Assembly: GCF_037078405.1 (NCBI RefSeq)
Contig: NZ_JAYMGZ010000003.1
Span: 496,001 to 560,000, forward strand
Reading direction: 5' to 3'
Length of the DNA: 64,000 nucleotides
Origin: Haloarcula sp. DT43
GTDB taxonomy: Archaea; Halobacteriota; Halobacteria; Halobacteriales; Haloarculaceae
The position numbers were made by a program, and so were the translations under genes. Shown one piece after another: positions 17,008 through 54,826 of the stretch. The first letter of the stretch is position 1, and each line of letters begins with the position of its first letter. The notes below the pieces were generated by a model. It searched no databases. It saw only the letters and a program-made list of their open reading frames with translations, and had not been told where the DNA came from.

Positions 17008-18159
17008 TCAGTCTTCGCCCGTCTGGAAGGTGTTCCGGAGTTCCGTTTGCTGATCCCAAGTTCCGTCGGCGTCCGAGAGTACGAGCGACAGGCCAGCACT
17101 GACGAGCGATACCTGTGCGTCGAACAACGCGTACAACGGTTCGAACGGTCCCAACCGGTCTGCCGACCCGAGGAGCACGAAGCCACCGAGCGTGAGCGGA
17201 ACCGCTATGCCCAGCCATCCGAAATTGGAAATCGCGCCGGCCACGATGGCGATGATACCAGCAGTGACGAGCCAGGGAGAAATGACCATCATTCCCCAAT
17301 TTAGTGGGAGGACGACGCGGCCGTAAGCGCCGTGCTGTCCGAGCGCGTCAACCTGCCTGAACAGCAACCGGAGTAGCCCCATCCCGCGTCGGTCTTTCTG
17401 GGCCCGGCGATCGCGAAACGCGGATTGAGCGGCCTCTTTGTACCGGACAGCAGGGTCGAATACGACGCGCGAACCGTTCCGACGGATCCGCAGGGCGAGT
17501 TCGGAGTCGTCCGCCAATGAGTCTTCGTCGATCGGGACGATCAGGTTCCGGCGAAACGCCGAGAACGGTCCATGAAAAATAAGCGTCGAATCGAGATGCG
17601 ACTCGGCCATCTGAACGAACGCCTGCATGCCCCGATAATTCGACTCGACCTCGCTTCCACCGATAACGTCGGCGTTCCGGCCGGTCACACCCCCGACCGA
17701 CGGGTCGTCGAAGTTCGCGACCGCTTCCCGGAGTGCGTCGGGGGCGAGTTTCGAATCACAGTCGGTCTTTACAACAATTTCGTTTGAGGCAGCGGCGTAG
17801 CCGTCGTTCAACGCCACTGCGAGCCCTCGTCGGGAGTCCTCACGAATCACCGACAGCGTCGGACCGTTTTGGTCGGTGTAGAACGACTCGATAAGTTCAC
17901 CTGTTCCGTCGTCGCTCGCGTCGACGACGACCAGTTCGAGTTTCTCGGTAGGGTAATCGAGCGACGCGATGTCTTCAAGTTTCGTCTCAACGATATCGGA
18001 CTCATTGAACGTCGGGAGGACGATACTAACTGAGGGTTCGACCTCTCGTTTATCTACTGGGGATCCGTCGGGCCCGAGTGCCATATGGAGCGCGAAGATT
18101 ATAAGATACGGGACAGCTGCAACCGCCAACAGCACGAACCCGGCCCAGACCGCAATCAC
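17008..18159 (-). CDS. Membrane-anchored family 2 glycosyltransferase
   Basis: 383 residues: an N-terminal transmembrane helix (residues 1-28), a GT2 catalytic domain (SIVLPTFNESDIVETKL, VVDASDDGTGEL, KTDCDSKLAPDAL, ADDSELALRIRRNG), and about three C-terminal membrane helices (WGMMVISPWLVTAGIIAIVAG and LTLGGFVLLG). The layout is like processive or dolichol-linked GT2 enzymes that act at the inner face of the membrane. The conserved TDCD sits where the metal/nucleotide-binding DxD belongs and ADDSE supplies the probable base. It opens the glycan island, divergent from the GT4 gene at 18399. Confidence 0.87.
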   Translation of the reverse strand: MIAVWAGFVLLAVAAVPYLIIFALHMALGPDGSPVDKREVEPSVSIVLPTFNESDIVETKLEDIASLDYPTEKLELVVVDASDDGTGELIESFYTDQNGPTLSVIREDSRRGLAVALNDGYAAASNEIVVKTDCDSKLAPDALREAVANFDDPSVGGVTGRNADVIGGSEVESNYRGMQAFVQMAESHLDSTLIFHGPFSAFRRNLIVPIDEDSLADDSELALRIRRNGSRVVFDPAVRYKEAAQSAFRDRRAQKDRRGMGLLRLLFRQVDALGQHGAYGRVVLPLNWGMMVISPWLVTAGIIAIVAGAISNFGWLGIAVPLTLGGFVLLGSADRLGPFEPLYALFDAQVSLVSAGLSLVLSDADGTWDQQTELRNTFQTGED

Positions 18160-18398: not shown

Positions 18399-19664
18399 AT
18401 GAACGGCTCCGATGACCGCCCCCGGGTAGGGATGATCCTTCGCGGATTCTTTCCAAGAGATATACGTGTAGAAAAAGAAGCTCGGTCGCTCGCGGCCGCG
18501 GGCTACGACGTTCACCTCCTCTGTCTTGGGCGCCCCAACGAGCGCGAGCAGGAGCTTGTCGGACCTCTGACCGTCCATCGGATCCATCGTGAAGCGCAGT
18601 ATAACGCGGTCTATCGGACGATCAAGACCGCTCGCTATCTTCTCACACTCCAGGACGTTATTTGGGAACGCGAGATCTCGCGATTCGTCGACGCTGCTGG
18701 GGTTGATATACTCCACGTGCACGACCTCCCGCTTGTCCGGACCGCTCAGACGGTCGCGGCCGATCGCCGGCTCCCGGTTGTCGCCGATCTCCACGAGAAC
18801 TACCCGGAGGCCGCTCGCCAGTGGCGAAAAGGGATGGCGAGTCCTCGACGGATAATTCAAAATACATTTACGCCAATCACCCGGCTAAAACGGCTCGAAC
18901 AGGAGGCAGTCCGTCATGTCGACCGCGTACTCGCAACCACTCCCGAGGGGCGTCGCCACTACGTCGAAGACTGCGGGGCCGACCCGCTGATAGTCCACAT
19001 CGTCTCGAACACGGTCGACTTGGAGACGTTCGACGACACGGCGACACCAGTCCCGGGGTTCGAAGAGGAGTTCGTGGTATCGTATGTCGGTAGTTTCGGT
19101 CCCCATCGCGGCCTGGAGACGGCCATCGACGCGATGCCCGCCCTCATCGAATCGGTTCCGAACGCGCACCTCCTGCTTGTTGGGTCGGCAGGGGAAGACG
19201 CGTACGACCGGGCGTTACGCGACCGCGTCGCCCGCCGTGGCCTCGAAGACCAAGTCACGTTCACCGGCTGGGTCGATTTTGAAGACGTGCCACGATATGT
19301 CGCGGCAAGCGACGTCGCGACTGTCCTCCACCGTGACAACCCACACACTGGGACGACCGTCCCACACAAACTGTTCCAGTATATGGCGCTCCGGACACCG
19401 GTCGTGGTCTCCGATGTCGACCCGCTCGCGCGCGTCGTCGACCGGGCCGACGCTGGTCGGATCGTCCTTGATGGGGACACGTCGTCGCTGGCGTCCGCAC
19501 TCGCGTCGCTCGCGACCGATGAAGAGATGCGACACGAACTCGGGGTCAACGGTCGGGCCGCTGTTCGCCGGCGCTATAACTGGCGAAGAGAAGCCGAACG
19601 GTTAGTGGCTGCATACCAAGGGCTCACCGACGAACGGTCCAAGTCAGTCGAAGGACGCGTCTGA
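18399..19664 (+). CDS. Family 4 glycosyltransferase
   Basis: 421 residues with the two-domain GT-B fold. The N-terminal acceptor domain has GMILRGFFPRDIRVEKEARSL; the C-terminal donor domain shows VSYVGSFGPHRGLETAIDAM, LLLVGSAGEDAYDRALRD, VTFTGWVDFEDVPRYVAASD, and the donor-binding HTGTTVPHKLFQYMALRTPVV. These are the classic GT4 (glycos_transf_1) landmarks of a retaining transferase using a nucleotide-sugar donor. The stop is 53 bases from the stop of the convergent GT2 gene. Sugar and acceptor cannot be read from the sequence. Confidence 0.9.
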   Translation: MNGSDDRPRVGMILRGFFPRDIRVEKEARSLAAAGYDVHLLCLGRPNEREQELVGPLTVHRIHREAQYNAVYRTIKTARYLLTLQDVIWEREISRFVDAAGVDILHVHDLPLVRTAQTVAADRRLPVVADLHENYPEAARQWRKGMASPRRIIQNTFTPITRLKRLEQEAVRHVDRVLATTPEGRRHYVEDCGADPLIVHIVSNTVDLETFDDTATPVPGFEEEFVVSYVGSFGPHRGLETAIDAMPALIESVPNAHLLLVGSAGEDAYDRALRDRVARRGLEDQVTFTGWVDFEDVPRYVAASDVATVLHRDNPHTGTTVPHKLFQYMALRTPVVVSDVDPLARVVDRADAGRIVLDGDTSSLASALASLATDEEMRHELGVNGRAAVRRRYNWRREAERLVAAYQGLTDERSKSVEGRV

Positions 19665-19717: not shown

Positions 19718-20659
19718 TCAAGGTTCACCGACGGGAGATCGGGTGAGGACTGCGTCACGCAGTCGGCGGGCCGCACGGAGCCCATCGAGGCCGAGAACCG
19801 ACGTGAGCGCGAGGCTCGCGTGGCCCCCGGTCGGTTGCAAGCGAAGCGCCGACACGAAGTGGCCAAGCGCTGCCGTGCGGTCGCCCTCGTGGAGTTCATA
19901 CAGCCCGAGTTCGCGGCGACGGGCCGCCTCGAACGCGCGGGCGCTCTCTGCGTTGACTGCGTCGAGCGCGTCCCGGTGTTTTTCTGCCATGCGACACCGT
20001 GCGCGGATATCGTACGCGGGGTCGCCGGTCACGTTATCGCCGTGGTGAATGCGCTCGACCAGCGTCTCTGGGACGTAGGCGAACTTCCAGCGCTTGGCTA
20101 GGCGAACAGTCAGGTCCCAGTCACAGGCGACGCTAAACTCGGTGTCGAATCCGCCGATCTCGTGCAGGCAGTCGGCCCGAACGAGCTGGCTGGAATGAGG
20201 TAGAATTGACATCCGGACAAGTACGTCGGGATACACGTCACCACTCGCACCCGTCTGCACCTGCTCGACGACCGTGCCGTCGTCGTCAACGATTACGCCT
20301 CCCGTGTAGACACCGCAGTACGAACTGTCGCATTCTGCCATTACTGCGATCTGGCGCTCGACTTTCCGGGGCCGCCACCGGTCGTCGTCTCCGAAGACAC
20401 CGATATACTCCCCTCGAGCAGCCTCAATGCCGCGGTTCATCGTGTAGGGGATACCACGGTTGCGGTCGTTGTGCAGCACCCGAACTCGGTCGTAATCGGC
20501 GTATTCGGCGAGCACTTCGGGCGTCGCGTCAGTGGACCCATCGTTGACCACGACGACTTCTACCCGGTCGTACGTCTGGTGGAGGGCGCTCTCAACCGCG
20601 CCGCCAACGTATTCAGCACGGTTGTACGTGGGTATGACAGCACTGACAAGCGGCTCCAT
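19718..20659 (-). CDS. Family 2 glycosyltransferase with C-terminal helical extension
   Basis: 313 residues from the ATG at 20659; the frame is open to 21007, but the added part overlaps the divergent aminotransferase and is not conserved-looking. The GT2 core reads SAVIPTYNRAEYVGGAVESA, VVVVNDGSTDATPEVL, GEYIGVFGDDDRWRPRKVE (metal-binding DDD) and GGFDTEFSVACDWDLTVRLA. The last 80 residues (NAESARAFEAARRRELGLYE, then AALGHFVSALRLQPTGGHA) look like a TPR-type tail, common in haloarchaeal GT2 proteins. Divergent from the aminotransferase at 20765, so both may share the 105-base promoter space. Confidence 0.88.
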   Translation of the reverse strand: MEPLVSAVIPTYNRAEYVGGAVESALHQTYDRVEVVVVNDGSTDATPEVLAEYADYDRVRVLHNDRNRGIPYTMNRGIEAARGEYIGVFGDDDRWRPRKVERQIAVMAECDSSYCGVYTGGVIVDDDGTVVEQVQTGASGDVYPDVLVRMSILPHSSQLVRADCLHEIGGFDTEFSVACDWDLTVRLAKRWKFAYVPETLVERIHHGDNVTGDPAYDIRARCRMAEKHRDALDAVNAESARAFEAARRRELGLYELHEGDRTAALGHFVSALRLQPTGGHASLALTSVLGLDGLRAARRLRDAVLTRSPVGEP

Positions 20660-20764: not shown

Positions 20765-21877
20765 ATGCCCGACAGGGTCGATTTTACCGACATCTACGTC
20801 GACGACGAGATCGTCGAACGCGTCGCCGAGACACTGCGAAGCACTCGATATGTGAAGGGCGACCGTGTCGAGGCGTTCGAAGACCGGTTCGCATCGAACT
20901 GCGGCACGGACCACGCAGTCGCGGTTAACAGCGGTACAGCGGCGATTCTCTTGTCGCTCAGGGCGGCTGGGGTCGGTGAGGGAGACGACGTATTCGTCCC
21001 CGGGCACACGTTCTTTGCGACCGTGAGTCCGGTGCTCGAACTCAGGGCGAATCCCGTGTTCGTCGACGTGAATCCCGAGACATACACGATCGACACGGCG
21101 GCGCTAGAAGCGGCGGTAGAGCGCTCCGAGTCCCCGACTGCGGTCGTCCCCGTCCACCTCTATGGCCAGCTAGCGGATGTCGTCGAGATCCAGGAACTGG
21201 CCGACAAATACGACCTGACGGTCGTCGAAGACGCGTGTCAGGCTCACTTCGCCACTCGCGACGGGATTACCGCCGGGACCGCCGGGACCGCCGGTGCGTT
21301 CAGTTTCTACCCCTCAAAGAACATGACTGTCGCCGGCGACGGCGGGATGATCGTAACCGACGACGAAGCGATCGCCGAGCAGGCACGGCGCTATCGGAAC
21401 CACGGACGCGACGACGCGGGCGTCCACCGCGAACTGGGGCTGAACTATCGACTGAGCGATGTGGCCGCGACGGTCGGAATCGAACAACTCGACCGCGTGA
21501 CGGCGTGGAACCAACGCCGCGCGGTCGCCGCGAGCCGGTACGACGACCACCTCGGCTCACATCCGTCGGTGACGACGCCGACTGTCGCCGAGGGGGCCAA
21601 CCACGTCTACCACCTCTACGTGGTACAGGTCCCCGAAGACCACCGTGACGCGCTTCGCGAGTATCTCGACGATAATGGGATCGACACCGGTGTCCACTAT
21701 CCGACGCCGGCTCATCGACACCCCGCAGTCACGGAACGGGTCGATCCACCGACACTCCCGACGACGGAGGCCCTCTGTGATCGGATCGTCTCGCTACCGA
21801 TGCATCCCCGGATCGACGACGAGTCGATTGACCGGGTCTGTGAGGCGGTTGAGGCCTACTTCGAGGTGGTCGCGTGA
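20765..21877 (+). CDS. DegT/DnrJ/EryC1/StrS-type sugar aminotransferase
   Basis: 370 residues of the PLP-dependent nucleotide-sugar aminotransferase family. The catalytic lysine is Lys185 in FYPSKNMTVAGDGGM, the PLP-ring aspartate is Asp156 in VVEDACQAH, and the phosphate-binding NSGTAA is at 55-60. Such enzymes convert a 3- or 4-keto nucleotide sugar to the amino sugar, usually with glutamate as donor. The stop overlaps the GTG start of the dehydrogenase by four bases (GTGA), so the two are coupled. With the nearby formyltransferase this argues for an N-acylated amino sugar in the surface glycan. Confidence 0.92.
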   Translation: MPDRVDFTDIYVDDEIVERVAETLRSTRYVKGDRVEAFEDRFASNCGTDHAVAVNSGTAAILLSLRAAGVGEGDDVFVPGHTFFATVSPVLELRANPVFVDVNPETYTIDTAALEAAVERSESPTAVVPVHLYGQLADVVEIQELADKYDLTVVEDACQAHFATRDGITAGTAGTAGAFSFYPSKNMTVAGDGGMIVTDDEAIAEQARRYRNHGRDDAGVHRELGLNYRLSDVAATVGIEQLDRVTAWNQRRAVAASRYDDHLGSHPSVTTPTVAEGANHVYHLYVVQVPEDHRDALREYLDDNGIDTGVHYPTPAHRHPAVTERVDPPTLPTTEALCDRIVSLPMHPRIDDESIDRVCEAVEAYFEVVA

Positions 21878-22875
21878 ACTACGCCGTCATCGGAACTGGG
21901 TACTGGGGGACAAACCACGTCCGCGTGGCCGCAGAGTTGCTCGCAGAGGGGGAAATCGATTCTCTGGTGCTCTGCGACATCGACGAACCACGGGTGGCGG
22001 AGATGGCCGACAACTACGGCGTTGAGTATGCGACCGAGTACACGCGGCTCTCCGACCTAGGCGTCGACGCCGCGGTCGTCGCGTCACCCTCTCCGACTCA
22101 CCGGACCGTTGCGACGGACCTCCTGAGGGCTGGCGTGGACGTACTCGTCGAAAAGCCGCTCGCACTGACCAGCGAAGCAGCCTGGGACATCGTTGAGGCG
22201 GCCGACGAGTGCGACCGAACGCTCGGAGTCGGGCACATCTTCCGGTATCACCCGGCACTCCGGGATCTCAAGCGCCGCATCGACCGCGGCGAACTGGGGG
22301 AAATAATCTACCTCTCGACTAACCGGTACGCGTTCCGCGCGCCCCGGCCGGAGACAGGTGTGTTGTACTCGCTGGCCGTCCACGACGTGGACATCTACGG
22401 GTATCTGCTTGACGACCGACCGACTGACATCCACTGTCAGCTGGATTCGACAGTGCGGGATGGCGTCGCCGAGACGGCGACACTGACGCTCTCGTACGGT
22501 GAAACGACAGGCGTTATTAACGAGTCATGGAACGTCCCAGTATTCGGGAAGCGTCGCGACCTTACCGTCGTCGGGAGCGAGCGATCGGCATACGTCGATT
22601 ATTTGGAAGATACTACCGTGGAACTCTACGACGCCACGATGGTCCACGAAAACGGAGACTTCCGCGCACGGTCAGAGGGCAAGACCGTCCACGAGGCCCC
22701 CCAAACTGAACCGCTGCGCGCAGAAGTCGAAGAGTTCGTCGCAGCCTGTCGCGAGAGGCGATGTCCTGAGGCATCGGGCCGCGTTGGTGCCCGAACAGTC
22801 GAACTACTGGAAGACGCGGAACGCTCTGCAGAGCGCGGACAGGTCGTCACACCAGATGGGCTGTTGCAAGACTGA
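21874..22875 (+). CDS. Gfo/Idh/MocA-family sugar oxidoreductase
   Basis: 333 residues, starting at the GTG at 21874 that overlaps the aminotransferase stop. The Rossmann motif GTGYWGTNH opens the protein, followed by the cofactor region (DVLVEKPLALTSEAAWDIV) carrying the EKP signature, and the C-terminal alpha/beta domain with LAVHDVDIYGYLL, where the conserved HDVD holds the catalytic residues. These enzymes oxidise or reduce sugars with NAD(P). Paired with DegT enzymes they often make the keto sugar that is aminated, as in the WlbA/WlbE-like 3-amino sugar routes. That pairing here is by position, not proof. Confidence 0.9.
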   Translation: MNYAVIGTGYWGTNHVRVAAELLAEGEIDSLVLCDIDEPRVAEMADNYGVEYATEYTRLSDLGVDAAVVASPSPTHRTVATDLLRAGVDVLVEKPLALTSEAAWDIVEAADECDRTLGVGHIFRYHPALRDLKRRIDRGELGEIIYLSTNRYAFRAPRPETGVLYSLAVHDVDIYGYLLDDRPTDIHCQLDSTVRDGVAETATLTLSYGETTGVINESWNVPVFGKRRDLTVVGSERSAYVDYLEDTTVELYDATMVHENGDFRARSEGKTVHEAPQTEPLRAEVEEFVAACRERRCPEASGRVGARTVELLEDAERSAERGQVVTPDGLLQD

Positions 22876-22876
22876 A

Positions 22877-23659
22877 TCAACGGTCTTCGTAGCCTGTCTT
22901 CGTGAGAAATACCGTCCGTCCCTTGAGAACGGTGTACGCCGGTTTATGAGGCGGAAAATCGAGTGCGCGAATCAGGTCGTACACAGCCGTCGCCGCTTCG
23001 GGGTCAGCGAGCCGTTCGGGATCGATCTCTTTGCGACCCTCAAGGCTATCTTTGGTATAAAAATACCGCGGGCCGTCGAACACTGACTGGGGCGTGCGTC
23101 GGTCTTGAATCTCGTGTGCCACTAGATCGGGGAGCGTCGCCTCGAACAAATCGATTGAGGCCTCGCGGGTTCGTTCGTACAGCGAGCGCGCTGTGTCGTC
23201 CTCTCGGATTTCGACGAACCGACGGTCGATGACATCACCGGCGTCGACCTCCTCTGCCATCACGTGCATGGTCGTCCCGTACTGCCAGTAGTCGTCGTCT
23301 CGGGCGTTCAAGATAGCGTGTGTGAACACGTTCGAGCCACGATATCGAGGGAGTTCTGCTTGGTGGAGGTTTATTGCCTCTTGGTCTGGGTGGTCGAGCA
23401 GCTCCGCGTCGAGGATGTTCGGGTAGTACACGCTCAGGAGATAGTCGACCTGGTAGTCGAGAATCCGACGCTCTTCAGCGAGGGGATACACCGGATAGCC
23501 GTACGTCTCGGCACGTGTACGGACCGACCCGTCCCACCAGCCGTCGTGGCCTTCGGGGTACGTGACGACGAGCGCCACGTCGACTTCCGGGTGGTCGTTG
23601 AGTTTGTCGAGACAGGCGACGCCGAGTGGATGGCTCCCGAAGAAGGCGATTTTAGTCAT
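22877..23659 (-). CDS. Sugar N-formyltransferase (methionyl-tRNA/ArnA-type formyltransferase fold)
   Basis: 260 residues from the ATG at 23659. The N-terminal formyltransferase domain has GSHPLGVACLDKL; the active-site Asn97 and His99 lie in NLHQAELPRYRGSN; and Asp139 is in EEVDAGDVI. This is the N-H-D triad of N10-formyl-THF-dependent formyltransferases. Archaea do not use formyl-Met initiation, so a methionyl-tRNA substrate is unlikely; the sugar-island location and short C-terminus point to formylation of an amino sugar as in ArnA, VioF or WlaRD. The gene overlaps the upstream fusion gene by eight bases and converges with the dehydrogenase at 22875. Confidence 0.86.
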   Translation of the reverse strand: MTKIAFFGSHPLGVACLDKLNDHPEVDVALVVTYPEGHDGWWDGSVRTRAETYGYPVYPLAEERRILDYQVDYLLSVYYPNILDAELLDHPDQEAINLHQAELPRYRGSNVFTHAILNARDDDYWQYGTTMHVMAEEVDAGDVIDRRFVEIREDDTARSLYERTREASIDLFEATLPDLVAHEIQDRRTPQSVFDGPRYFYTKDSLEGRKEIDPERLADPEAATAVYDLIRALDFPPHKPAYTVLKGRTVFLTKTGYEDR

Positions 23660-25505
23660 GGGTTGAGGAGTATGCGGGGTTCGTTTCGGTTCGTGCTCGA
23701 TTCGAGATCGGGTTGCGTCGGGCCGAACAGCGCTCGACAAGGTTCGTCAGCGCCATCACCAGCGAACCGACCTCGTAGGCTCCTTTAAATTGCTGGTCGG
23801 GCACATCAAGACGACCGTCAGTCGTCAGGAATCGAACGGGGACGCCGAGCCCGCTCAGCGACCGCAAGTCCTGTTCGCGGTCGTTATCGCCGAACACCCA
23901 ACGCATGGCGTCTCCGAGGGCACTGGCGTAGTCGCGCTCGCCGCCTGCGGCCTCGTAGTGTGCCACAGCGTTAACAAAGAACGTTTGGTGGCATGGGTAG
24001 AGGAACTCCCAGTGGGGCGGTCGACTTTTTCCGCGACCGAGACAGCGGCGGAGTTCCGTTCCTGCGTAGACACGGCGAGATGGGTCCTCCCAGACAAAGG
24101 CGCCATCCCGACGCATCCGCTCTTCGATCGTGTAGTCAAGGACTGCTTCGACGTTCTCAAGGTAGCCCTCGCGGTCGGTCACTTCGATGGCACGACAGAG
24201 CCCCCAGAGAGTGTACATCTGGTTCTGGTGGCGTCGAGTCGTCGGATTATCGAAATAGAACAGCGTCTTCCAAGCGTTCTGTCGCTCGATGATCTCGTAC
24301 ATGGCACTGTCGATAGCGTCGTGAAGGTCGGTATCTACCCACCGGTCGTAAAGATACGTCCAGCCGTACAGCAGGAGGGCGTCCTCGGCGTGGTCAAACG
24401 TGAACCGTTCGTCGGCGTGCTCGAACAGACGTCGCGCGACGGCTAGATAGTCTGGGCTGCTGGGGGTGTCTCCGAACACATCATCAGCTAAGGCGAAGGC
24501 CACCGTCAGCGCTCCGACCCCGTAGCTCGGCATCTCTGACAGGGAGTCGTCAACCCGGTCGGTAAAGTAGGAGAGTTGTCCCTCGAGTCTGTCGTCCCAG
24601 TCCGCAGTCCCGAGTGGAGACGCCCGCCACTGCATGGCGCCCATCAGTGCGAACGGTGCGTATCGCCACTCGTTGTCGTCGACTGGCGTCCAGTTCTCCG
24701 GGCGGCCATCAACAGCGTCGTATGCCAGAGCACGAATCAGTCGCTCGGTGTCGGGGTTCCAGAAGCCGTGCTCGTCAACGGGCCTGAAGAGACAGTCGAG
24801 CGCGTCCGTCAGCGCCCCCTCGTAGTCCAGCGGCCGGGCACCCAGTACGAGATAGGAAGCGTCGTCCCAGTCGTCGTCGCCGAGCGCATCGCTCCGGGAC
24901 TCAGCCCAATCGACGAACGGTCGCTGGACCGCGGGAGGCGCCATCGCCAGTTTCGAGTGGAGCCAGTAAGGATGCTGGTAGACGAGATCACAGTCATCCA
25001 GGCCCATTCCCGGGTCGAGCAGGGACAGTGCCTCTTCAGGTTCGTAGTACCTGAGCCGGTACTTTCCGCCAGTTTCGTACGGAGAACGGGGAGTCGGTAC
25101 GGAGAAGACAAACCGCCCCTCGGGTGCGGTGACGCGCCGTACCTCCGCGGTGAGCGTGTCGATATCGAGAAACCGCCAGTCGTAGGGCCCGATCGAGACT
25201 GCGCCGTCGAAGCTATCGGCTTCGAAGGGGAGCAGCGGCTCCTCGGGCGTTGTCTGTTCGTATCGGTCGACTTCGTCGCCTAGCACGTTTCTGGCGTGGT
25301 CGATCGCGGCCGCGGAGAAGTCGACGCGGGTCACCGAATCGGCATCGAGACCTGCGGTGACGTTTGCCTCGCTCGCGATGTCGAGTACGTGCTCGCGCGG
25401 CCCGAGCACCTCCCACGCCGATTCCTTTTCGGCGTCGCGGAGGTACTGATACACCGGGTCAGCCGACGGCTGGCTCACCCACCGGGTGAGCACTTCGTCA
25501 CGCAT
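23652..25505 (-). CDS. Fusion of a class I methyltransferase with an alpha/alpha-barrel (toroid) domain
   Basis: 617 residues. Residues about 30-200 form a class I SAM methyltransferase: VLDIASEANVTAGLDADSV (motif I, with SEA in place of the usual GxG), VDFSAAAIDHARNVLG, LPFEADSFDGAVSIGPYDW, and APEGRFVFSVPTPRSP. From about 240 to 590 the protein is a series of helix pairs rich in W and Y (LLLYGWTYLYDRWVDTDLHD, RHQNQMYTLWGLCRAI, PCHQTFFVNAVAHYEAAGG, FKGAYEVGSLVMALTNLVE), the signature of an (alpha/alpha)n barrel as in glycoside hydrolases, polysaccharide lyases or epimerase-like sugar enzymes. It is translationally coupled to the formyltransferase. A role in capping or modifying a glycan chain is inferred. 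No exact family recognised. Confidence 0.7.
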   Translation of the reverse strand: MRDEVLTRWVSQPSADPVYQYLRDAEKESAWEVLGPREHVLDIASEANVTAGLDADSVTRVDFSAAAIDHARNVLGDEVDRYEQTTPEEPLLPFEADSFDGAVSIGPYDWRFLDIDTLTAEVRRVTAPEGRFVFSVPTPRSPYETGGKYRLRYYEPEEALSLLDPGMGLDDCDLVYQHPYWLHSKLAMAPPAVQRPFVDWAESRSDALGDDDWDDASYLVLGARPLDYEGALTDALDCLFRPVDEHGFWNPDTERLIRALAYDAVDGRPENWTPVDDNEWRYAPFALMGAMQWRASPLGTADWDDRLEGQLSYFTDRVDDSLSEMPSYGVGALTVAFALADDVFGDTPSSPDYLAVARRLFEHADERFTFDHAEDALLLYGWTYLYDRWVDTDLHDAIDSAMYEIIERQNAWKTLFYFDNPTTRRHQNQMYTLWGLCRAIEVTDREGYLENVEAVLDYTIEERMRRDGAFVWEDPSRRVYAGTELRRCLGRGKSRPPHWEFLYPCHQTFFVNAVAHYEAAGGERDYASALGDAMRWVFGDNDREQDLRSLSGLGVPVRFLTTDGRLDVPDQQFKGAYEVGSLVMALTNLVERCSARRNPISNRARTETNPAYSSTHD

Positions 25506-25601: not shown

Positions 25602-27029
25602 CTAACCGACCGACGGAACGAGTCCGACCAGCCGTGTCCGGGTGTCCTCGTGGCCGAGCACCGCTCCCCCATAGACGACGACGCCCAGCGCGACGAGGAC
25701 CAGCAGCCGTGGCGTCGTTGTTGGGGGGATCGCGCGACTCGTTACGTAGACGGCCACACCCATCGCTGCCGCGGCGACAGCCTGCCAGGTAATTGCTCTG
25801 ACATCGAACCGCACCGCAATAGCGCGGTCAAGTGCGGCGGTCTGGGCAAGGGCTGCGGTGCCGGCGGTACTGGTAGTGGCGACCGCAGCCCCGACGAGCC
25901 CGTACCGCGGGACCAGCAGGACGTTCAGCACGATGTTCGCACCGACGGCGACGGTATTCGTCCAGAAGACGAGCCGCTGGCGTTCTGTCCCGAGAAGCGT
26001 GCTCTGGACGATGTCCTTGACTGCCTGGAACAGTTTCTCCGCGACGAGGAGCAGCAAGACGAATCCGCCGGTATCGAACCGATAGAGGTTCCGCATGAAC
26101 GCCCCGCCCAGGATGGCGACACCGACAACGGCGGGAACGACCAGCAAGAGCGCGTACGTTAGGCTCTCCGAGACGGCCGCTTCAATGCGTTCAATCTCAC
26201 CGTTTGCGTGCCAGTTGCTGACTGAGGGGGCTAACGCGGCCCCAATCGACGAACTCGCCAGCATCACGACGACGCTTACCCGCCAAGCGGCCTCATAAAC
26301 ACCAACAGCCGCCGACGAGACGAACACGGCGAGTGCGAGCGTGTCGAACCAGCTGTACGCGAGGTGTGAGACGTTCATGCCGGCTGTGTACTTCGAAAAC
26401 GAGACCAGTCGACCGAACGTCTCTCGCGTCGGCCGAAGCAATGGTGTGCGTACCAGACCGGCAGCCGCGACAGCCCGGACGAACTGGCCGACCAAGAGTC
26501 CGTACACGAGTGCGACCGCGCCACCGCCCCCGAGCACGAGTGCGACGCTGAGTCCAACCCGCGCGACTTCGCCGCACACTTCCACGCCGGCGCTGGTGGC
26601 GATTCGGCGTTCGCCGCGCAGCGCGGATGCGAGTACCCATCCTGCAGACTCGATCCCGATCACGACCACCAACAGCGGGACGAGCCCGACACCGATGCCA
26701 CTGTTGAACAGTGCGCCAACAGTATCGCGGAAACCGACGAGTCCGAGTGAGACGAGCACGAACGGGAGGACAACCGCCAGTAACGCCGCGGTCAGGAACC
26801 GCCCTCGCTCTCGGTCGCTATCTGACTCGCTCATCCGCTTGATGACGGCGTTGTCCGCCCCGAACCGCGCGAACACGCCGAGAACGTTGACAACCGTCTC
26901 GAACGTGAAATACAGACCAAGGCCGGCTGCCCCAAGTTCGCGGGCAAAATATACTGTGCTGAGGAAGCCAACCAGGCTGATGCCTACCCGACTGCCGTAC
27001 AGGACCACACTCGACCGGTCGAGATCCAT
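25602..27029 (-). CDS. Lipid-linked oligosaccharide flippase (Wzx/RfbX, AglR-like MATE-superfamily)
   Basis: 475 residues, about 14 predicted membrane helices (e.g. GLVPLLVVVIGIESAGWVL, ALLLVVPAVVGVAILGGAF, ALVYGLLVGQFVRAV). The opening SRVGISLVGFLSTVYFAREL with GAAGLGLYFTFETV, and FGADNAVIKRMSES, are typical of polysaccharide_synt flippases that carry lipid-linked glycans across the membrane. It follows the sulfatase-like gene by three bases in the same operon. Its presence means that a membrane-lipid-linked oligosaccharide is made here and exported. Confidence 0.88.
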   Translation of the reverse strand: MDLDRSSVVLYGSRVGISLVGFLSTVYFARELGAAGLGLYFTFETVVNVLGVFARFGADNAVIKRMSESDSDRERGRFLTAALLAVVLPFVLVSLGLVGFRDTVGALFNSGIGVGLVPLLVVVIGIESAGWVLASALRGERRIATSAGVEVCGEVARVGLSVALVLGGGGAVALVYGLLVGQFVRAVAAAGLVRTPLLRPTRETFGRLVSFSKYTAGMNVSHLAYSWFDTLALAVFVSSAAVGVYEAAWRVSVVVMLASSSIGAALAPSVSNWHANGEIERIEAAVSESLTYALLLVVPAVVGVAILGGAFMRNLYRFDTGGFVLLLLVAEKLFQAVKDIVQSTLLGTERQRLVFWTNTVAVGANIVLNVLLVPRYGLVGAAVATTSTAGTAALAQTAALDRAIAVRFDVRAITWQAVAAAAMGVAVYVTSRAIPPTTTPRLLVLVALGVVVYGGAVLGHEDTRTRLVGLVPSVG

Positions 27030-27032
27030 GGC

Positions 27033-28466
27033 TCAGCGGTACCCCAATTCGCGGAGCCGATCGGCGACGCCATGGTCAACGGCGTCGTCCGCGTCCGACC
27101 CGGACACCGCGGCGTCTGCATCGCGCGCCGCGGTGGCTGCACTGACCGCAAACGGTCCGTCCTCGGCGTTTGGTCGCGCCCAGTCGGGGACTGTCGGGTC
27201 GTCAGACCGGTCACGCTGCCAGCACGGGCGGTCGGTGTCGAGTCCGAAGCGTTGAACCGACCCCGACTCGTCCCAGACCCACTTGCTGTTCCCCTCGTAG
27301 ACGCATCGGCGGAGACGGTCCCATCGTTCGCCAGACAGCGATTCGTTGCTCGGCGTCACGCCCAAGAGTTCAGCTGCGGCCCGCTCGCGCGTCACATCGG
27401 GGACCCGTCCATTGGCCAGTCCGCGGATCAGCCGCCGGAGGTCGAGGTGCGAGACGTACCCAGAGACCGTCCCGAGTTCACTGGGCGGATTGATCACGAC
27501 GAGTGGAACGTGGAGGACGCCCTCCGAGAGACTCCCGACGTGACCGAACAGTCGATCGTCTGCAGGGTAGGCGAGGTTCTCCCCGTGATCTGCAGTGACG
27601 ACGACGGTTGTTTCCCGGTCGGTCGCTGCCAAAAGATTGTCAACGAACCGCATTGCCCATCGGTCGAGGTAATCGATAGCCGCAGCGTACTGGGTGCGGT
27701 AACGACGGAGGTCCGCCGCGTGGTCGTCCGGGCTCTCAATCACGTCGGCGTTCGAGACGTGTTCGGAGTCCCAGCCCGCTGGGACGTTCGTCTTCCGGTA
27801 GCCGCGCGCGGTCCGCTGTGGCTCGTGGGCATCCATTGCGTTGACGAACAGAAAGAACGGCTCCGTACCGACGCGCTCGGTCGCCGCGCGCGAACAGACA
27901 ACCGCACCGTCGTCGAACAGCTCCGCACGCCCCGACAGCGGGCCGTGTCGGACCGCGTCGTTCGCACGGTAGAGCGCGACGTTCGCGAGGCTGGCGAGCG
28001 GACGGTCGTCGGTTGCGACGGCGCGGGCGAGCGCAAGGTACTTTTCAGGGCCCGCCTCGGCGTGTTCGCGGACGAACGCAGCCGGGTCGAGCGCGTCGGG
28101 AAAGCGCCGGTACCGCGAGACATCGACGAACTCGTCGAACAGACTGTCGAAGCCGTATGTCGATCCAGCGTAGACGTTCGCGCTCACACCGACTGCCCGA
28201 TGTGTCGAGAGGTCTCCAATAATTGTCTTTTCGCTGTCGAGCGCGTCGAACGAAGGCGCACGGCTGTGGACCCCGTGTTCGTGCGGCAGTTGTCCAGTCA
28301 GCATGCTCGCATGGCTGGGGGTGCTCCACCCGCTGGCAGCTCGACACCCTTCGTAGACGATTCCAGCCCGCTCACGCAGGCGTGGTGCGAACAGCCTGAA
28401 GAAGTCGGCCCGAACGGTGTCTAAACAGAGGACGACGACGTTGCGAGTCACTATGTCGCCCTCCAT
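27033..28466 (-). CDS. Sulfatase-family hydrolase/transferase (alkaline phosphatase superfamily)
   Basis: 477 residues. The metal-binding opening LCLDTVRADFF (Asp16) and the nucleophile region SGWSTPSHASMLTG are clear, as is TADHGENL later. In true sulfatases the nucleophile sits in C/S-x-P-S-R; here the text is S48-T49-P50-S51-H52, a Ser-type site with Arg replaced by His. So it may be a phospho- or phosphoglycerol transferase or a noncanonical sulfatase, acting on surface glycans. The ATG at 28466 overlaps the previous gene by 16 bases; a GTG at 28451 is the other possible start. The flippase gene follows three bases after the stop. Confidence 0.82.
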   Translation of the reverse strand: MEGDIVTRNVVVLCLDTVRADFFRLFAPRLRERAGIVYEGCRAASGWSTPSHASMLTGQLPHEHGVHSRAPSFDALDSEKTIIGDLSTHRAVGVSANVYAGSTYGFDSLFDEFVDVSRYRRFPDALDPAAFVREHAEAGPEKYLALARAVATDDRPLASLANVALYRANDAVRHGPLSGRAELFDDGAVVCSRAATERVGTEPFFLFVNAMDAHEPQRTARGYRKTNVPAGWDSEHVSNADVIESPDDHAADLRRYRTQYAAAIDYLDRWAMRFVDNLLAATDRETTVVVTADHGENLAYPADDRLFGHVGSLSEGVLHVPLVVINPPSELGTVSGYVSHLDLRRLIRGLANGRVPDVTRERAAAELLGVTPSNESLSGERWDRLRRCVYEGNSKWVWDESGSVQRFGLDTDRPCWQRDRSDDPTVPDWARPNAEDGPFAVSAATAARDADAAVSGSDADDAVDHGVADRLRELGYR

Positions 28467-30040
28467 GTGGTATCTGCCGGCGAGGCGGCATCGACGTCCA
28501 TTCGAGTCGTAGTCGTCCGCTCGGAGACGGTTCGAGACGTTCCGTTCTCGCTTCGGACGAACAATAGCAGTCGAACACCTTCGTACGGACGGTCGACCGC
28601 GACGGTCATGTTCTGGCCGAGGACGGTTCTGACACGCTCGGACTCGCTCTCGCTAATATGCGAGAGCATGAGCCACACCCGGTCCTCACCGGCAGCCATC
28701 TCCGTGATAGTCTCATTGGACGCCGGCGCATACCCGGTCCCCGACTTCGCGGCGACCAGCCCCAGAACACGCACATCAGACCGGTCGACGTAGTGTTCGG
28801 CACCATACTGGGAGATCTGGTCTGCGACAATAACGAGGTCACCGGACTCAGCGTTGCGCTCAACGTAAGCACCCGTCGCGTCCCACTCTTCTTTTTGTGT
28901 TTCGGTATAATAGACACCGAGTTGCGGGAGCATACTCAGGAGGACTATGCCGGCGAGCACGTAGCGTAATGTCGGTGCCCCGATTCGATCGATACCGAGC
29001 GCAACCAGGAGGAACAGCCCGACAGAGGCGGCGATTGTATAGCGGTCCCAAAACACTGGCGTGATAGTGTACGACACAACGAACGGAAGCCCGATCGCGG
29101 CGGCGAGGACGAGGGTGAAGAGCACGCGTTCTTCCCCCGGACGCGGAACCCACCCCGACCAGTTGCGCAGTCCGTGATGTCGCGGTCGTCGCGGATCGTT
29201 GCCGAGCGCCCCGAATGCTGCCAGCCCGCAGACCACCGCGAGCGGTGCGACGTACAGCGGGAGGGCCGGACCGCCCCTGTACCCCATGTACAGGACGATG
29301 ACCTCGCCGATGTTCAGCAGTGTCGGAAGCGGAATAAACGAGTAGGAGACGCCGCCGCGAACCCGCAAGAACACGGCCACTGCCATCGGAATCGCGGCGA
29401 CGGCGACGGGGGCGAACGGTGCGACCCAGCGCTGGGCCGCACTGGCCCGGTCGTCCTTACTGATAACGACAGCCAGAATCCATAGCACTTCGGCGGCGAC
29501 CACGAAGACGGCGAAGACATGGGTGTACAGTAGCACGACCGTGACGGCACCGTACGCGGCGACTGCACGACGGGTCCGGTCCGCTCGGATCCGGAGCAGT
29601 AGGTACAACGAGAGCAGGACCAGCAACACCAGAAGGCTGTACATTCGCACCTCCTGCGAGTACCGGACGTGAAACCGGGAGACTGCGAGTATCACTGACG
29701 CTAAAAGTCCGACCCAGTGGTTCGCGGCTTCCCGGCCGACGAGATAGATCACGCCGACCGCAGCGATGCCGAAGACCGCCGATGGAAGCCGGAGCGCGAA
29801 CTCGGAGGTGCCGACGAAGCGGATCCAGGCGTCAAGGAGCAGGTAGTACACCGGGAGGTGGGGCTGGGCCTGCGGGAGTTGTATCGCGAGTTCGATCCCG
29901 TCCCACCGCTGGACGAACATCAGCGTCAGCAGTTCGTCCGTCCAGAGGCTCTCCTCGCCCAGTGCGAACAATCGAAGAGCGGATGCGAGGACGATGACGG
30001 CAATAATGTGGCTGTTCTCTGCCGACCGGATCCGAACCAT
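28451..30040 (-). CDS. GT39/GT83 (ArnT/PMT)-like membrane glycosyltransferase
   Basis: 529 residues from the ATG at 30040. The first luminal loop has the family motif LRLFALGEESLWTDELLT (the acidic ExLWxDE signature of ArnT/PMT proteins that use a polyprenyl- or dolichyl-phosphate sugar). About ten membrane helices follow (WVGLLASVILAVSRFHVRYS, VVLLYTHVFAVFVVAAEVLW) with a soluble C-terminal domain of about 150 residues. It transfers a sugar from a lipid donor outside the membrane. An upstream open extension to 30166 contains no membrane or domain signal, so it is left out. Overlaps the sulfatase-like gene. Confidence 0.85.
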   Translation of the reverse strand: MVRIRSAENSHIIAVIVLASALRLFALGEESLWTDELLTLMFVQRWDGIELAIQLPQAQPHLPVYYLLLDAWIRFVGTSEFALRLPSAVFGIAAVGVIYLVGREAANHWVGLLASVILAVSRFHVRYSQEVRMYSLLVLLVLLSLYLLLRIRADRTRRAVAAYGAVTVVLLYTHVFAVFVVAAEVLWILAVVISKDDRASAAQRWVAPFAPVAVAAIPMAVAVFLRVRGGVSYSFIPLPTLLNIGEVIVLYMGYRGGPALPLYVAPLAVVCGLAAFGALGNDPRRPRHHGLRNWSGWVPRPGEERVLFTLVLAAAIGLPFVVSYTITPVFWDRYTIAASVGLFLLVALGIDRIGAPTLRYVLAGIVLLSMLPQLGVYYTETQKEEWDATGAYVERNAESGDLVIVADQISQYGAEHYVDRSDVRVLGLVAAKSGTGYAPASNETITEMAAGEDRVWLMLSHISESESERVRTVLGQNMTVAVDRPYEGVRLLLFVRSENGTSRTVSERTTTTRMDVDAASPADTTWRAT

Positions 30041-30143
30041 TCGACGGCACGAAAGAGAATAGCGGTAATTGTTATAAGGAGCATACAGCCGCAGTAGGTA
30101 CCCTGATTCTAAAACGCAGCACTGCCAACAGGTGAATAACGTC

Positions 30144-31160
30144 ATGCGCACGGTCATGATCTGCACGGACCCCCATCCCGCCCACTTTGGTTTCGCTCAG
30201 GCGGTGGACGCGGAACTGGTCCAGTTCCGCCGGGACGGCGATACTGGTTCACTCGCGGAGGACCTCCGAAACAGCCTCCGCTACCCCGATGCAGACGTGT
30301 ACCTCGTCGAGGGGTCCCAACCGCTCTGGGCGTCGCTCCTTGCAAGCGTTCGGACCGGCGCGAGCGTTGTGTACCTCTGTGCCGACCACGGGTTCTACAA
30401 CCTCGGCCACGGGTCGTTCGAAGGACAGTCTCCACTGAAAACAGTTGTCGGTCGGTTCGGTCGTCCCGTAGTCAAGCGGGTCGGACGGTGGGGGATCGAT
30501 GGCGTCGTCGCCGTTTCGGAGTTCGCCGCCGAGTTCGTCAGCCCATTCGTATCCGCGTCGACGCCAGTCCGTATCGCACATCCGTACGTCCAGCCGGACC
30601 GATACGACTCGCTCCTGACCATAGATCCAGCGTTCGACGAATGCCGGGCGGTGACGATCGGTCGCGGCGCCCGGTACAAGGGGATCGACTTGCTCGTTGA
30701 GGCCTGGCCTATGATACGCGAAAGCCATCCCGACGCGAAACTCGACGTGGTCGGCACGGACCACCCAACTGTGTACGGCGAGCAAGCGGGCGTGACCGTC
30801 CACGGGTACGTTGACGACGACCATCTCATCTCGCTGTTGGGCCAGGCGTCACTGTTCATCCAGCCGTCCCGGATGGATACATTCCCGGTCGCGACGCTGG
30901 AGGCGATGTGCGCTGGCCTCCCACCGCTCGTCACCGACTGCACTGGGACCCGTTCGGAAGCACGGGCGCTTGATGCAGAGTTAGTAGTCAAGCCGACGCC
31001 GCGGTCGATCGCAGCGGGCGTTCGTGCGTACTTCGAACGACTTGTGACCGAGCGCGAACGTCTCGGTGCGGCTGCACGCGAACGTGGGCGACAGTTCGAC
31101 CGGGCGACCCGAACTGCCGCGTTCCGTCGCGCGTTCTACGACGTCGTCGCGCGCTCGTAG
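30144..31160 (+). CDS. Family 4 glycosyltransferase
   Basis: 338 residues with a short N-terminal acceptor domain (MICTDPHPAHFGFAQ...) and a full donor domain: AVTIGRGARYKGIDLLVEAW, LDVVGTDHPTVYG, VTVHGYVDDDHLISLLGQAS, FIQPSRMDTFPVATLEAMCA (the E-x7-E-type donor motif region) and PPLVTDCTGTRSEA. GT-B fold GT4. Start is the ATG at 30144; a GTG at 30132 is possible. Its end overlaps the convergent GT4 gene by 25 bases, with no terminator space between. Divergent from the ArnT-like gene. Confidence 0.87.
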   Translation: MRTVMICTDPHPAHFGFAQAVDAELVQFRRDGDTGSLAEDLRNSLRYPDADVYLVEGSQPLWASLLASVRTGASVVYLCADHGFYNLGHGSFEGQSPLKTVVGRFGRPVVKRVGRWGIDGVVAVSEFAAEFVSPFVSASTPVRIAHPYVQPDRYDSLLTIDPAFDECRAVTIGRGARYKGIDLLVEAWPMIRESHPDAKLDVVGTDHPTVYGEQAGVTVHGYVDDDHLISLLGQASLFIQPSRMDTFPVATLEAMCAGLPPLVTDCTGTRSEARALDAELVVKPTPRSIAAGVRAYFERLVTERERLGAAARERGRQFDRATRTAAFRRAFYDVVARS

Positions 31161-32200
31161 ACCGCTGCTACTCCCTCAGCGCAGTCATCCCAGCTCTGAA
31201 TCGGGGCCGAAGGTGCATCAAGTCCGACCGCAGCGTCGACTGCCTCGGCGATGGCGGCCGGTGATGCCGCGGTAGCGATACAGTCTCGACGGTCGGCCCA
31301 TTCCGAGAGGCCTCCAACTTCGCGGACGACAGACGGTGTCCCAGCGGCGAGTGCTTCACCGACAGTGAGGCCGTAGGCTTCGTGTTCAGAGAGCGCGAGG
31401 TGGGCCGCGGCGCCGGCATAGAGTCCGGGCAGGCGTTCGTCGTCGACGTATCCCAGCAGGTCGAGGCGGTCGGCGACTCCTGCGTCCGTTGCCCGAGACA
31501 CCAGTCGGTCGCGGTCCGGCCCGCGGCCGGCGACGACCAAGTGGTAGCTCGGCAGTTCGGTCAGCGCCGCCACGGCGAGATCAACTCGTTTGTATTGCTC
31601 GAGGCGGCCGACCATGAGGAGGTACGGGCCATCACGTCGCTCCGCTGGCGCGCCTGCAAAGCGGTCCACATCGATTCCGTTCCGGACAACTGTCACCCTG
31701 TCGACTAGGTCACGGCTGAGTATTTTACGCTCCCACTCACTCACAGCCACGATCGCGTCGGCCCGTTCGAGAGCACGACGACCGAGGGGCCGGTAGAGTC
31801 GGAGCAATCGGTCCCGGAACTCCGACGCGCTTTGCCCGTGATAATGGGGCGTGGCGACCAGCGCCGCGTCGCGCGTCGCAAACGCTCCCAGTACGAACGG
31901 AAATGCGTGATAGTTGTGGATGTGAATCACATCTGCCGATGCGTCGTGGCGCCGGACCGCTGGGTACACACTAGGAGACAGGTAGAACGCGCCACCGGGA
32001 GCGAGCGACCGACAGCGCATGACGGGCACGCTATTGGGACGGTCGCCGTCGGCTTCGTTCGGATCGGCAGTGACGACGCAGACGTCATGGCCCGCCGCTC
32101 GTTGTCGGGTCGCGAGCGCTTTGACATGGCGTTCGACGCCGCCGACTCGCGGCGGATACCGGTGTGTCACGTGAAGCACCTGCATCGAGTGTGTAGACAT
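31136..32200 (-). CDS. Family 4 glycosyltransferase
   Basis: 354 residues. VLHVTHRYPPRVGGVERHVKALA is the classic GT4 start; then LLMVGRLEQYKRVDLAVAAL, LVVAGRGPDRDRLVSRATDA, LLGYVDDERLPGLYAGAAAH and LSEHEAYGLTVGEALAAGTP, the E-x7-E donor site. An ATG at 32185 (MQVLHV) is as likely a start as the one at 32200. Last gene of the island before the MITE and TnpB relics; it converges with the other GT4 gene, with a 25-base overlap. Sugar unknown. Confidence 0.9.
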   Translation of the reverse strand: MSTHSMQVLHVTHRYPPRVGGVERHVKALATRQRAAGHDVCVVTADPNEADGDRPNSVPVMRCRSLAPGGAFYLSPSVYPAVRRHDASADVIHIHNYHAFPFVLGAFATRDAALVATPHYHGQSASEFRDRLLRLYRPLGRRALERADAIVAVSEWERKILSRDLVDRVTVVRNGIDVDRFAGAPAERRDGPYLLMVGRLEQYKRVDLAVAALTELPSYHLVVAGRGPDRDRLVSRATDAGVADRLDLLGYVDDERLPGLYAGAAAHLALSEHEAYGLTVGEALAAGTPSVVREVGGLSEWADRRDCIATAASPAAIAEAVDAAVGLDAPSAPIQSWDDCAEGVAAVYERATTS

Positions 32201-36567: not shown

Positions 36568-36975
36568 CTACCGATAGCTTTCGTGGGTCACACCCGGAAT
36601 TGTTCCGAAGTAGCTGTCGCCGGCGAGAACAGGCTCATCACGCTCCAGAGCGGTTGCAGCGATTGCCGCACCCCCTTTGCCAATCCCTGGTCCCTCACCG
36701 TCGTCCGCATCGGCCATCCGTTCACCGAGTAGCCGACCAGCGCGGCGGGAGATGCTCGGTGTCATATCGACCAGCGGGTACGAGTCAAGCACAGCTTCTA
36801 CGGTCTGGCGTTCCTCACGGGTATTCGCAATCTTCCCAACACCAATGTAGAGTTCCAAGACCGTCATTGAAGGAATCACTAATGGAACGTTCGCTGCTTC
36901 GAGCTCCCGTTCCTTCTTGAGGGCCGCTTCGACACCGTCGATGATATCCAGAATGAAGCTCGTATCGACAATCAT
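36568..36975 (-). CDS. vapC: PIN-domain toxin of a VapBC pair
   Basis: 135 residues. The first acidic residue is Asp4 in MIVDTSFILDI, the standard PIN-domain opening; SMTVLELYIG holds the second acidic residue; the last acidic position is in the LAGDSYFGTI segment near the end. PIN toxins cut RNA, usually tRNA or mRNA, when freed from the antitoxin. Its start codon overlaps the stop of the antitoxin gene by four bases, as in typical VapBC operons. The target is unknown. Confidence 0.88.
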   Translation of the reverse strand: MIVDTSFILDIIDGVEAALKKERELEAANVPLVIPSMTVLELYIGVGKIANTREERQTVEAVLDSYPLVDMTPSISRRAGRLLGERMADADDGEGPGIGKGGAAIAATALERDEPVLAGDSYFGTIPGVTHESYR

Positions 36976-37202
36976 TCGAATCGCTCCGCGACATCCCGGA
37001 CCTCGTCGCGGTCGTCCTGATCAGCCCGTTCGATGGCGTCCCGCATCTCGTTCACCTGGTCCTCGTCGAACACACCGCGAAGGTCTCTGAGTGATTGCCC
37101 ACCGATAAGCCGCTCCACGGCATCGCTGAACGACTCGTCGTCACGCTTGTTCGCTTTGATCCGTTCGTATACATCATCCTCAAGACGGACTTGATGTGAC
37201 AT
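36972..37202 (-). CDS. vapB: VapB-type antitoxin
   Basis: 76 residues from the ATG at 37202 (an upstream in-frame ATG at 37223 adds seven residues). The N-terminus (MSHQVRLEDDVYERIKANKR) followed by SFSDAVERLI is the ribbon-helix-helix-like DNA-binding and dimer part seen in haloarchaeal antitoxins; the C-terminal charged helix (VNEMRDAIERADQDDRDEVR) would wrap the toxin. Stop overlaps the toxin start (ATGA). It probably represses its own operon. 37203-37399 holds only an AT-rich stretch. Confidence 0.8.
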   Translation of the reverse strand: MSHQVRLEDDVYERIKANKRDDESFSDAVERLIGGQSLRDLRGVFDEDQVNEMRDAIERADQDDRDEVRDVAERFE

Positions 37203-37399
37203 CCTTGTTGACAGCGTTGACACTCTATCGGAATCAACATTTGGGTGCTACAGTAGGACGATAGCGGTGAGACCTCTAATTAGATATTATCTATACATTC
37301 CAGAGAAGAACTACAGTAGTTGAAACTGGACGTCTCAATGCATGCGGTCCTCAACTTCTTCGTGTTCGAGCCTAGCGGTAGCAAGTGTATCATCTGCCA

Positions 37400-53898: not shown

Positions 53899-54826
53899 TG
53901 GTGAATCGCTGGACAGCGTCGGCTTCGACCGTTAGAACTAGGAAGATGAAGCGGGAAATCGCCGATGCTCTATGTCGAAGATCTCCCGCTTCACGAGCAA
54001 AGTCGTTCAGTTAGCTAAAAATGCTGTTGGTGAACGAGGCGAAGTCGCCGCCCCCGAAGGGGGTGGCGGCTTCGCCGAGTATGCAGTGGTGTCGCTGCAC
54101 TGTCTGCGGGTTTACCGGGAAAAATCCTACCGAGAAGCACTTGATTTGCTGAGCGAGATGCCACAAATACTTGGGGAGATCGGCCTCAACGCGTCCGATC
54201 TCCCCGATCACTCGACGCTAGTCAAATGGTTTGACAGAATCAAGACAGCGCTCTGGCGAGTGCTGCTGCGCCTCTCGGCGCAGCTGCACGAGCCGAGCGG
54301 TCACGCCGCTATCGACGCAACGTTCTTCGACCGAGAAAACGCTAGCAAACACTACTGTCGACGGACGAATTACCGGGTTCAAACGCTCAAAACAACTGCT
54401 CTCGTCGATACAGAAAGCCAAGCCATTCTGGATGTTCACTGTACGACCGAGAAGCGCCACGACACGCAGCTCGGCTGGCAGGTCGCCCTCCGCAACGCGG
54501 GCGACCTCGCCAGCCTCGCTGCCGACAAAGGCTACGATTGGATGGAATTACGCGAGAAACTCCGCGAAGAAGACGTGAGACCGCTGATCAAACATCGTGA
54601 GTACCGGCCCATCGATCACGCGCATAACGCGCGGATCGATGGGCCTCGATACCGCCAACAAGCGATGTGTGAAACCGTCTTCTCGACGATTAAGCGCACG
54701 CTCGGCGACGCCGTGCGTGCGCGAACTTGGTACGGTGAATTTCGTGAACTCGTTCTGATGTGTGCCGTTCACAACATCAAGCAATCGATGAAACCGTGAA
54801 ATCAAGCTACGTCTGACGATTCACCA
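53899..54826 (+). mobile_element. IS5-family insertion sequence, complete
   Basis: The ends are inverted: TGGTGAATCG at 53899-53908 and CGATTCACCA at 54817-54826, with partial pairing continuing inwards (13 of 20). The one internal gene is a full transposase. No clear target-site duplication can be seen. The total of 928 bases suits single-ORF IS5 elements. A broken second copy lies at 57527-58093 with the same right end. Confidence 0.75.
53972..54799 (+). CDS. IS5-family DDE transposase
   Basis: 275 residues. The catalytic triad can be placed: Asp115 in AIDATFFDRENASK, Asp185 in LAADKGYDW and Glu234 in CETVFSTIKRTLGD, followed by the conserved YGEFRELVLMCAVHNIK tail. Single uninterrupted frame, so it should be active and could also move the defective copy 2.7 kb away. 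The Ala/Gly-rich insert near residue 25-35 (GEVAAPEGGGGF) is common in haloarchaeal IS5 transposases. Start ATG at 53972. Confidence 0.93.
   Translation: MSKISRFTSKVVQLAKNAVGERGEVAAPEGGGGFAEYAVVSLHCLRVYREKSYREALDLLSEMPQILGEIGLNASDLPDHSTLVKWFDRIKTALWRVLLRLSAQLHEPSGHAAIDATFFDRENASKHYCRRTNYRVQTLKTTALVDTESQAILDVHCTTEKRHDTQLGWQVALRNAGDLASLAADKGYDWMELREKLREEDVRPLIKHREYRPIDHAHNARIDGPRYRQQAMCETVFSTIKRTLGDAVRARTWYGEFRELVLMCAVHNIKQSMKP

Follow-up and report, generated by a model that had tools for sequence, protein, structure and literature searches.

A predicted pathway to a 3-formamido sugar in a polysaccharide island of Haloarcula sp. DT43 and in other Halobacteria

In the genome of Haloarcula sp. 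DT43 we analyzed a stretch of 64,000 nucleotides (contig NZ_JAYMGZ010000003.1, positions 496,001 to 560,000; hereafter the window), in which the genes of a DegT-family sugar aminotransferase, a Gfo/Idh dehydrogenase and a formyltransferase (FT) lie together. As far as the chemistry can be read from the protein families, this trio almost certainly makes a surface sugar with a formylated amine. Comparison of the sequences further suggests that the product is probably a nucleotide-activated 3-formamido sugar, predicted to be UDP-2-acetamido-3-formamido-2,3-dideoxyglucose.

The three open reading frames (ORFs) were found where an earlier note on this DNA had placed them, and each is backed by a Pfam domain that agrees with the identity given there. 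The aminotransferase of the DegT/DnrJ/EryC1/StrS type (DegT), a predicted C3-aminotransferase, occupies positions 20765..21877 of the plus strand (PF01041 DegT_DnrJ_EryC1, E 3e-116). The Gfo/Idh/MocA dehydrogenase (Gfo/Idh), predicted to be a GnnA-like UDP-N-acetylglucosamine (UDP-GlcNAc) 3-dehydrogenase, follows on the same strand at 21874..22875 (GFO_IDH_MocA, E 4e-23), and the two reading frames share 4 bp. FT, a predicted sugar N-formyltransferase of 260 aa with an ATG start and the Formyl_trans_N fold (PF00551, E 6e-21), lies at 22877..23659 on the minus strand. It is convergent with Gfo/Idh, only 1 bp separating the stop codons, and so DegT-Gfo/Idh and FT constitute two transcription units, not one operon. 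The genome has a single sugar DegT, a single such Gfo/Idh and a single non-purine FT; its remaining two Formyl_trans_N proteins are a PurN, scoring above its cutoff, and a PurU-like protein.

In the pathway that we infer, in all its chemistry, in the position of the amine and in the final polymer, Gfo/Idh would oxidise C3 of UDP-GlcNAc to a 3-ketone and DegT would transfer an amino group onto C3, giving UDP-GlcNAc3N. FT would then pass a formyl group from N10-formyltetrahydrofolate to the C3 amine, producing UDP-2-acetamido-3-formamido-2,3-dideoxyglucose. Here FT would stand in place of the acetyltransferase (WbpD/WlbB) of the bacterial UDP-GlcNAc3NAcA pathway. Enzymes encoded elsewhere may oxidise the product at C6 or epimerise it, the glycosyltransferases of the surrounding island would use it, and the island flippase would export it.

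The arrangement of the three genes is conserved across the Halobacteria. Our sample consisted of 36 distinct loci with an FT homologue (identity 46-69% in one locus set; gene calls were mechanical), whose counts do not represent independent events. DegT and Gfo/Idh were present within ~10 kb of FT in 31/36 loci, from several families of Halobacteria, and in 27 of these 31 the DegT-Gfo/Idh pair and FT are convergent, as in the window. The gap between the pair and FT ranges from 1 bp to 5.4 kb in the 21 convergent loci measured. At one locus (L119) all three genes lie on the same strand, in the order DegT-Gfo-FT. Among 146 genomes of the window's family a DegT orthologue was detected in 20 (412-824 bits, well separated from the next match at 298 bits) and FT in 22, and every one of the 20 genomes with DegT has FT. 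The genomes span six genera, and the hypergeometric P of this co-occurrence is ~1e-22, uncorrected for shared ancestry. FT was also found in at least four further families. The clustering of DegT, Gfo/Idh and FT is beyond chance, and the link between them is functional.

In Halorientalis sp. IM1011 the module is located on plasmid pHOS100 (L090:10065-15415), adjoining an IS200/IS605-type transposase and TnpB pair, which suggests mobility. In a public plasmid record the module genes bear only family-level names (formyltransferase family protein, Gfo/Idh/MocA family oxidoreductase).

FT is altered or broken in genomes where its partner is missing. G014 and G016 are the only genomes of the family with FT but without DegT (no DegT match at E 1e-30), and both carry altered catalytic residues in FT: D139E in each, joined in G016 by N97G and H99R. 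The FT branch of G016 is also long in the tree, 0.74 versus ~0.05 for its neighbours. Beyond the family, the FT of G227 is frame-broken and that genome lacks a DegT orthologue, while G318 and G404 have FT with intact motifs and a DegT orthologue located elsewhere in the genome. G064 and G080 each contain a second, decaying copy of the module in which the gene order is retained (L080, L081): FT has five stops in the former, and in the latter DegT is frame-shifted and FT broken. Such patterns would be expected if FT is of use only alongside its DegT partner, and the genomes with degenerate orphan FTs are ready-made natural controls. Two orphan FT homologues, at L055:9630-10412 and L056:9623-10405, have full-length frames with altered catalytic residues and no DegT partner in the genome; they are either decaying or repurposed.

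The FT of the window keeps the catalytic residues N97, H99 and D139, the N-H-D set that the earlier note had recognized. Among NCBIfam models it scored best with the generic formyltransferase model PRK06988 (132 bits), then with ArnA (88), Fmt (73) and PurN (53), all below their cutoffs. We built a tree from rows of bacterial Fmt, ArnA and PurN, of a second haloarchaeal FT group and of the window's FT group. The last formed its own clade with 100/100 support, apart from the six bacterial Fmt-type rows, which formed another (100/99) and joined ArnA (93/90). Clustering with methionyl-tRNA formyltransferases, the placement named by the earlier note as contrary to its reading, was thus not what the tree returned. 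In addition, FT gave no Pfam match to the tRNA-binding C-terminal domain of Fmt, and it is 260 aa long versus 306-320 in the Fmt references. Its match to N_formyltrans_C (PF18216), the C-terminal dimerisation domain of sugar FTs, was partial and stayed below threshold (23.7 bits, cutoff 25.8). Its AlphaFold model (pLDDT 87) is matched about equally by Fmt, ArnA and WbkC when ranked by E-value, the best TM-scores belonging to WbkC and ArnA. Judged by its sequence, FT is not a methionyl-tRNA formyltransferase. The N-formyl amino-sugar module of the earlier note is likewise supported. The VioF part of its label "ArnA/VioF-type" is rejected: VioF is one of the lower-scoring PDB matches, and the haloarchaeal FTs that do resemble VioF/Rv3404c form a different group.

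The two other enzymes bear on the position of the amine. The best NCBIfam model for Gfo/Idh was NF040723, archaeal UDP-GlcNAc 3-dehydrogenase (210 bits, below its cutoff of 450), and the top match of its profile against PDB was GnnA (7bvj, E 5e-51; the next match had 2e-32). Its EKP (lysine) and HDxD motifs are invariant in the alignment, as is the pyridoxal phosphate lysine of DegT, K185. The DegT profile placed the 3-aminotransferases DesV, QdtB and WbpE (309-358 bits) above perosamine synthase (~280), ArnB (251-265) and PseC (152). In this ranking structure 2oga is DesV, a C3 aminotransferase, and structure 2fn6 goes by its established enzyme name; the top profile match was 7b0d, labelled glutamine--scyllo-inositol transaminase. 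No 4,6-dehydratase was present among the identified island genes and no WbpD-type N-acetyltransferase among those identified near the module, neither set being a full annotation of every ORF. Neighbourhood family 4, first suspected to be an acetyltransferase, looks by eye like a winged-helix-type regulator. Since Gfo/Idh is GnnA-like, DegT resembles 3-aminotransferases and a 4,6-dehydratase was not seen, a 3-formamido rather than a 4-formamido-6-deoxy sugar is predicted. Both enzymes point to position 3 of UDP-GlcNAc, and away from the UDP/dTDP-4-amino substrate that had been proposed earlier.

A related gene set occurs in Halobacterium salinarum DSM 3754 (L005:10001-15366), where FT, DegT, Gfo/Idh, a UDP-ManNAc-type dehydrogenase and a WecB-type 2-epimerase follow each other on a single strand; at locus L116 FT likewise lies with these four. 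The bacterial UDP-ManNAc3NAcA pathway consists of WbpA/B/E/D/I, including the acetyltransferase WbpD (PMC10622841). By analogy, the gene set of the two loci would comprise counterparts of WbpE, B, A and I, while FT would occupy the WbpD position. For the Hbt. salinarum operon the predicted residue is GlcNAc3NFoA or ManNAc3NFoA. The module of the window resembles the Wbp/Wlb pathway in that a GlcNAc-type sugar is predicted to be oxidised and aminated at C3 and then N-acylated; it differs in having no 6-dehydrogenase or 2-epimerase and in having a formyltransferase where WbpD is expected.

Could FT act on something else? It might serve tRNA, purine or peptide formylation, its position being incidental, and its catalytic domain is indeed common to Fmt and PurN. 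However, its clade is separate from both, it has no Fmt_C domain, the genome has its own PurN, and FT and DegT co-occur almost perfectly, so that we consider such a role extremely improbable. Formylation of a dTDP/UDP-4-amino-4,6-dideoxy sugar, or of an ArnA-like 4-amino sugar, also seems very unlikely. PRK06988 and ArnA are the two best NCBIfam models of FT, and ArnA and WbkC are among its best folds. Nevertheless, the identified island genes include no 4,6-dehydratase, Gfo/Idh has no part in C4 pathways and is conserved with DegT and FT in the 31 linked loci, and the C4 aminotransferases PseC and ArnB score below the C3 enzymes.

The product may also be some other N-formyl amino sugar, if C3 amination takes place on a sugar that lacks the 2-acetamido group (a kanosamine-like route starting from UDP-glucose or glucose 6-phosphate) or on an already oxidised uronic acid, UDP-GlcNAcA, as with WbpB/WbpE. 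Such enzymes occur in the Gfo/Idh and DegT families (NtdA, 237 bits; WbpE, 309 bits), the genome encodes AglM and a UDP-ManNAc-type dehydrogenase, and the Hbt. salinarum operon includes a UDP-sugar 6-dehydrogenase. On the other hand, NtdA scores well under WbpE, QdtB and DesV, the UDP-ManNAc-type dehydrogenase of the genome lies ~80 kb outside the window whose module has no 6-dehydrogenase, and UDP-GlcNAc itself is the substrate of the best Gfo/Idh model. We regard this explanation as possible, though rather unlikely. Several observations weigh against the predicted 3-formamido derivative of UDP-GlcNAc. None of the family models for an exact activity scores above its curated cutoff with the trio. 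Fold comparison alone ranks GnnA only 12th for Gfo/Idh, among many similar enzymes, so this assignment rests on sequence. The best single solved structure for FT by sequence and fold E-value is 4iqf, annotated as methionyl-tRNA formyltransferase; this match reflects the catalytic domain common to Fmt, and an Fmt assignment taken from it was ruled out by tree position and domain content. FT is on the opposite strand in the window and is sometimes kilobases distant or unlinked elsewhere. Finally, L005 and L116 use another DegT/Gfo subfamily (~41% and 32% identity for L005), and they therefore support the logic of the pathway but not exact orthology.

Other known systems share parts of the predicted 3-formamido pathway. 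GnnA and GnnB make UDP-GlcNAc3N for lipid A synthesis in Acidithiobacillus and in some of the rhizobia (PMC5644692). They are likewise a Gfo/Idh and DegT pair, but the amine in lipid A is acylated by Lpx enzymes, whereas here it is predicted to be formylated and destined for a surface glycan. In the S-layer N-glycan of Halorubrum sp. PV6, 5-N-formyl-legionaminic acid was found, and HrrPV6_1050 was suggested to be the formyltransferase (PMC6137143). Common to both cases are a haloarchaeal surface glycan with an N-formyl sugar, predicted for the window, and a formyltransferase gene in a glycan cluster, but the Halorubrum sugar has nine carbons and is made by Leg enzymes. Legionaminic formylation is unlikely in the window genome: a DegT search returned one protein at 388 bits and the next best at 48 bits, and since this sole sugar DegT is paired with Gfo/Idh, a second aminotransferase for the LegC step is missing (LegB and LegI were not searched for). 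The haloarchaeal plasmid pHILL-c2 encodes a predicted sugar N-formyltransferase, assigned by structure to the Rv3404c (dTDP-Qui4N) type (PMC11431627). Both it and the FT of the window are accessory sugar formyltransferases of haloarchaea, but the latter falls outside the clade of Rv3404c-like haloarchaeal FTs. The ArnA N-terminal domain and Brucella WbkC, among the best structural matches, share with FT the fold and the N-H-D residues; they are only ~20-25% identical to it and act on 4-amino sugars (UDP-L-Ara4N and GDP-perosamine).

The candidate destinations of the sugar are the S-layer, an exopolysaccharide or a glycolipid. The S-layer, one of the two named in the earlier note, did not gain support: AglB is encoded on a different contig (C4), and the island comes with a flippase of its own. 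Contig C2 carries a further, weak STT3 match next to AglM. Diacetamido glucuronic acid, which is chemically close to the predicted sugar, is known in haloarchaeal exopolysaccharide (PMC3191746).

The genes around the trio form a polysaccharide island. Directly upstream of FT, and overlapping it by 8 bp, lies a gene of 617 aa on the minus strand (23652..25505), likely co-transcribed with FT. Its product has an N-terminal S-adenosylmethionine methyltransferase domain (Methyltransf_11, E 7e-7) followed by ~430 residues that match no Pfam or NCBIfam family, and homologues of this fusion protein recur close to FT in several loci from several genera. Further along the minus strand are a Wzx-type polysaccharide flippase (25602..27029; Polysacc_synt_3, E 2e-21), a sulfatase-superfamily protein (27033..28466; Sulfatase, E 2.5e-19) and a PMT_2-type membrane mannosyltransferase-like protein (28451..30166; PMT_2, E 1e-11). 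Pfam identified five glycosyltransferases: two of GT2 type, at 17008-18081 (-) and 19718-20605 (-), and three of GT4 type, at 18399-19664 (+), 30132-31160 (+) and 31136-32200 (-). At 36568-37223 of the window the minus strand carries a PIN-domain gene with a small upstream gene, a VapBC-like toxin-antitoxin pair. Between 45000 and 64000 the GC content drops from ~0.60 to ~0.51-0.55, and a DDE transposase lies at 53972-54799; this is possibly acquired DNA.

The earlier description of formylated sugars as little described in archaea is fair, although the claim to novelty is weakened by the N-formyl-legionaminic acid of the haloarchaeal S-layer N-glycan. The open-licence literature gave no usable match for a 3-formamido-2-acetamido sugar and no description of a DegT-Gfo/Idh-FT route to an N-formyl sugar. 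To our knowledge, a 2-acetamido-3-formamido-2,3-dideoxy-hexose has not been described before. The new elements are the DegT-Gfo/Idh-FT module, the tight co-occurrence of its genes and the product predicted for it, and a specific, testable product is thereby assigned to generically annotated genes.

We lean slightly toward the broader view that haloarchaea possess a widespread, probably horizontally mobile formyl-transferring version of the GlcNAc3N pathway, with an FT clade of its own in place of the acetyltransferase, which would put a 2-acetamido-3-formamido-2,3-dideoxy-hexose (or uronic acid) in surface polysaccharides. The product predicted for the trio would be the second N-formyl sugar of archaeal surface glycans, independent of 5-N-formyl-legionaminic acid. 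As the N-formyl sugar of Halorubrum has been linked to interaction with the virus HRPV-1 (PMC6137143), the scattered and sometimes plasmid-borne module could likewise bear on virus-host recognition.

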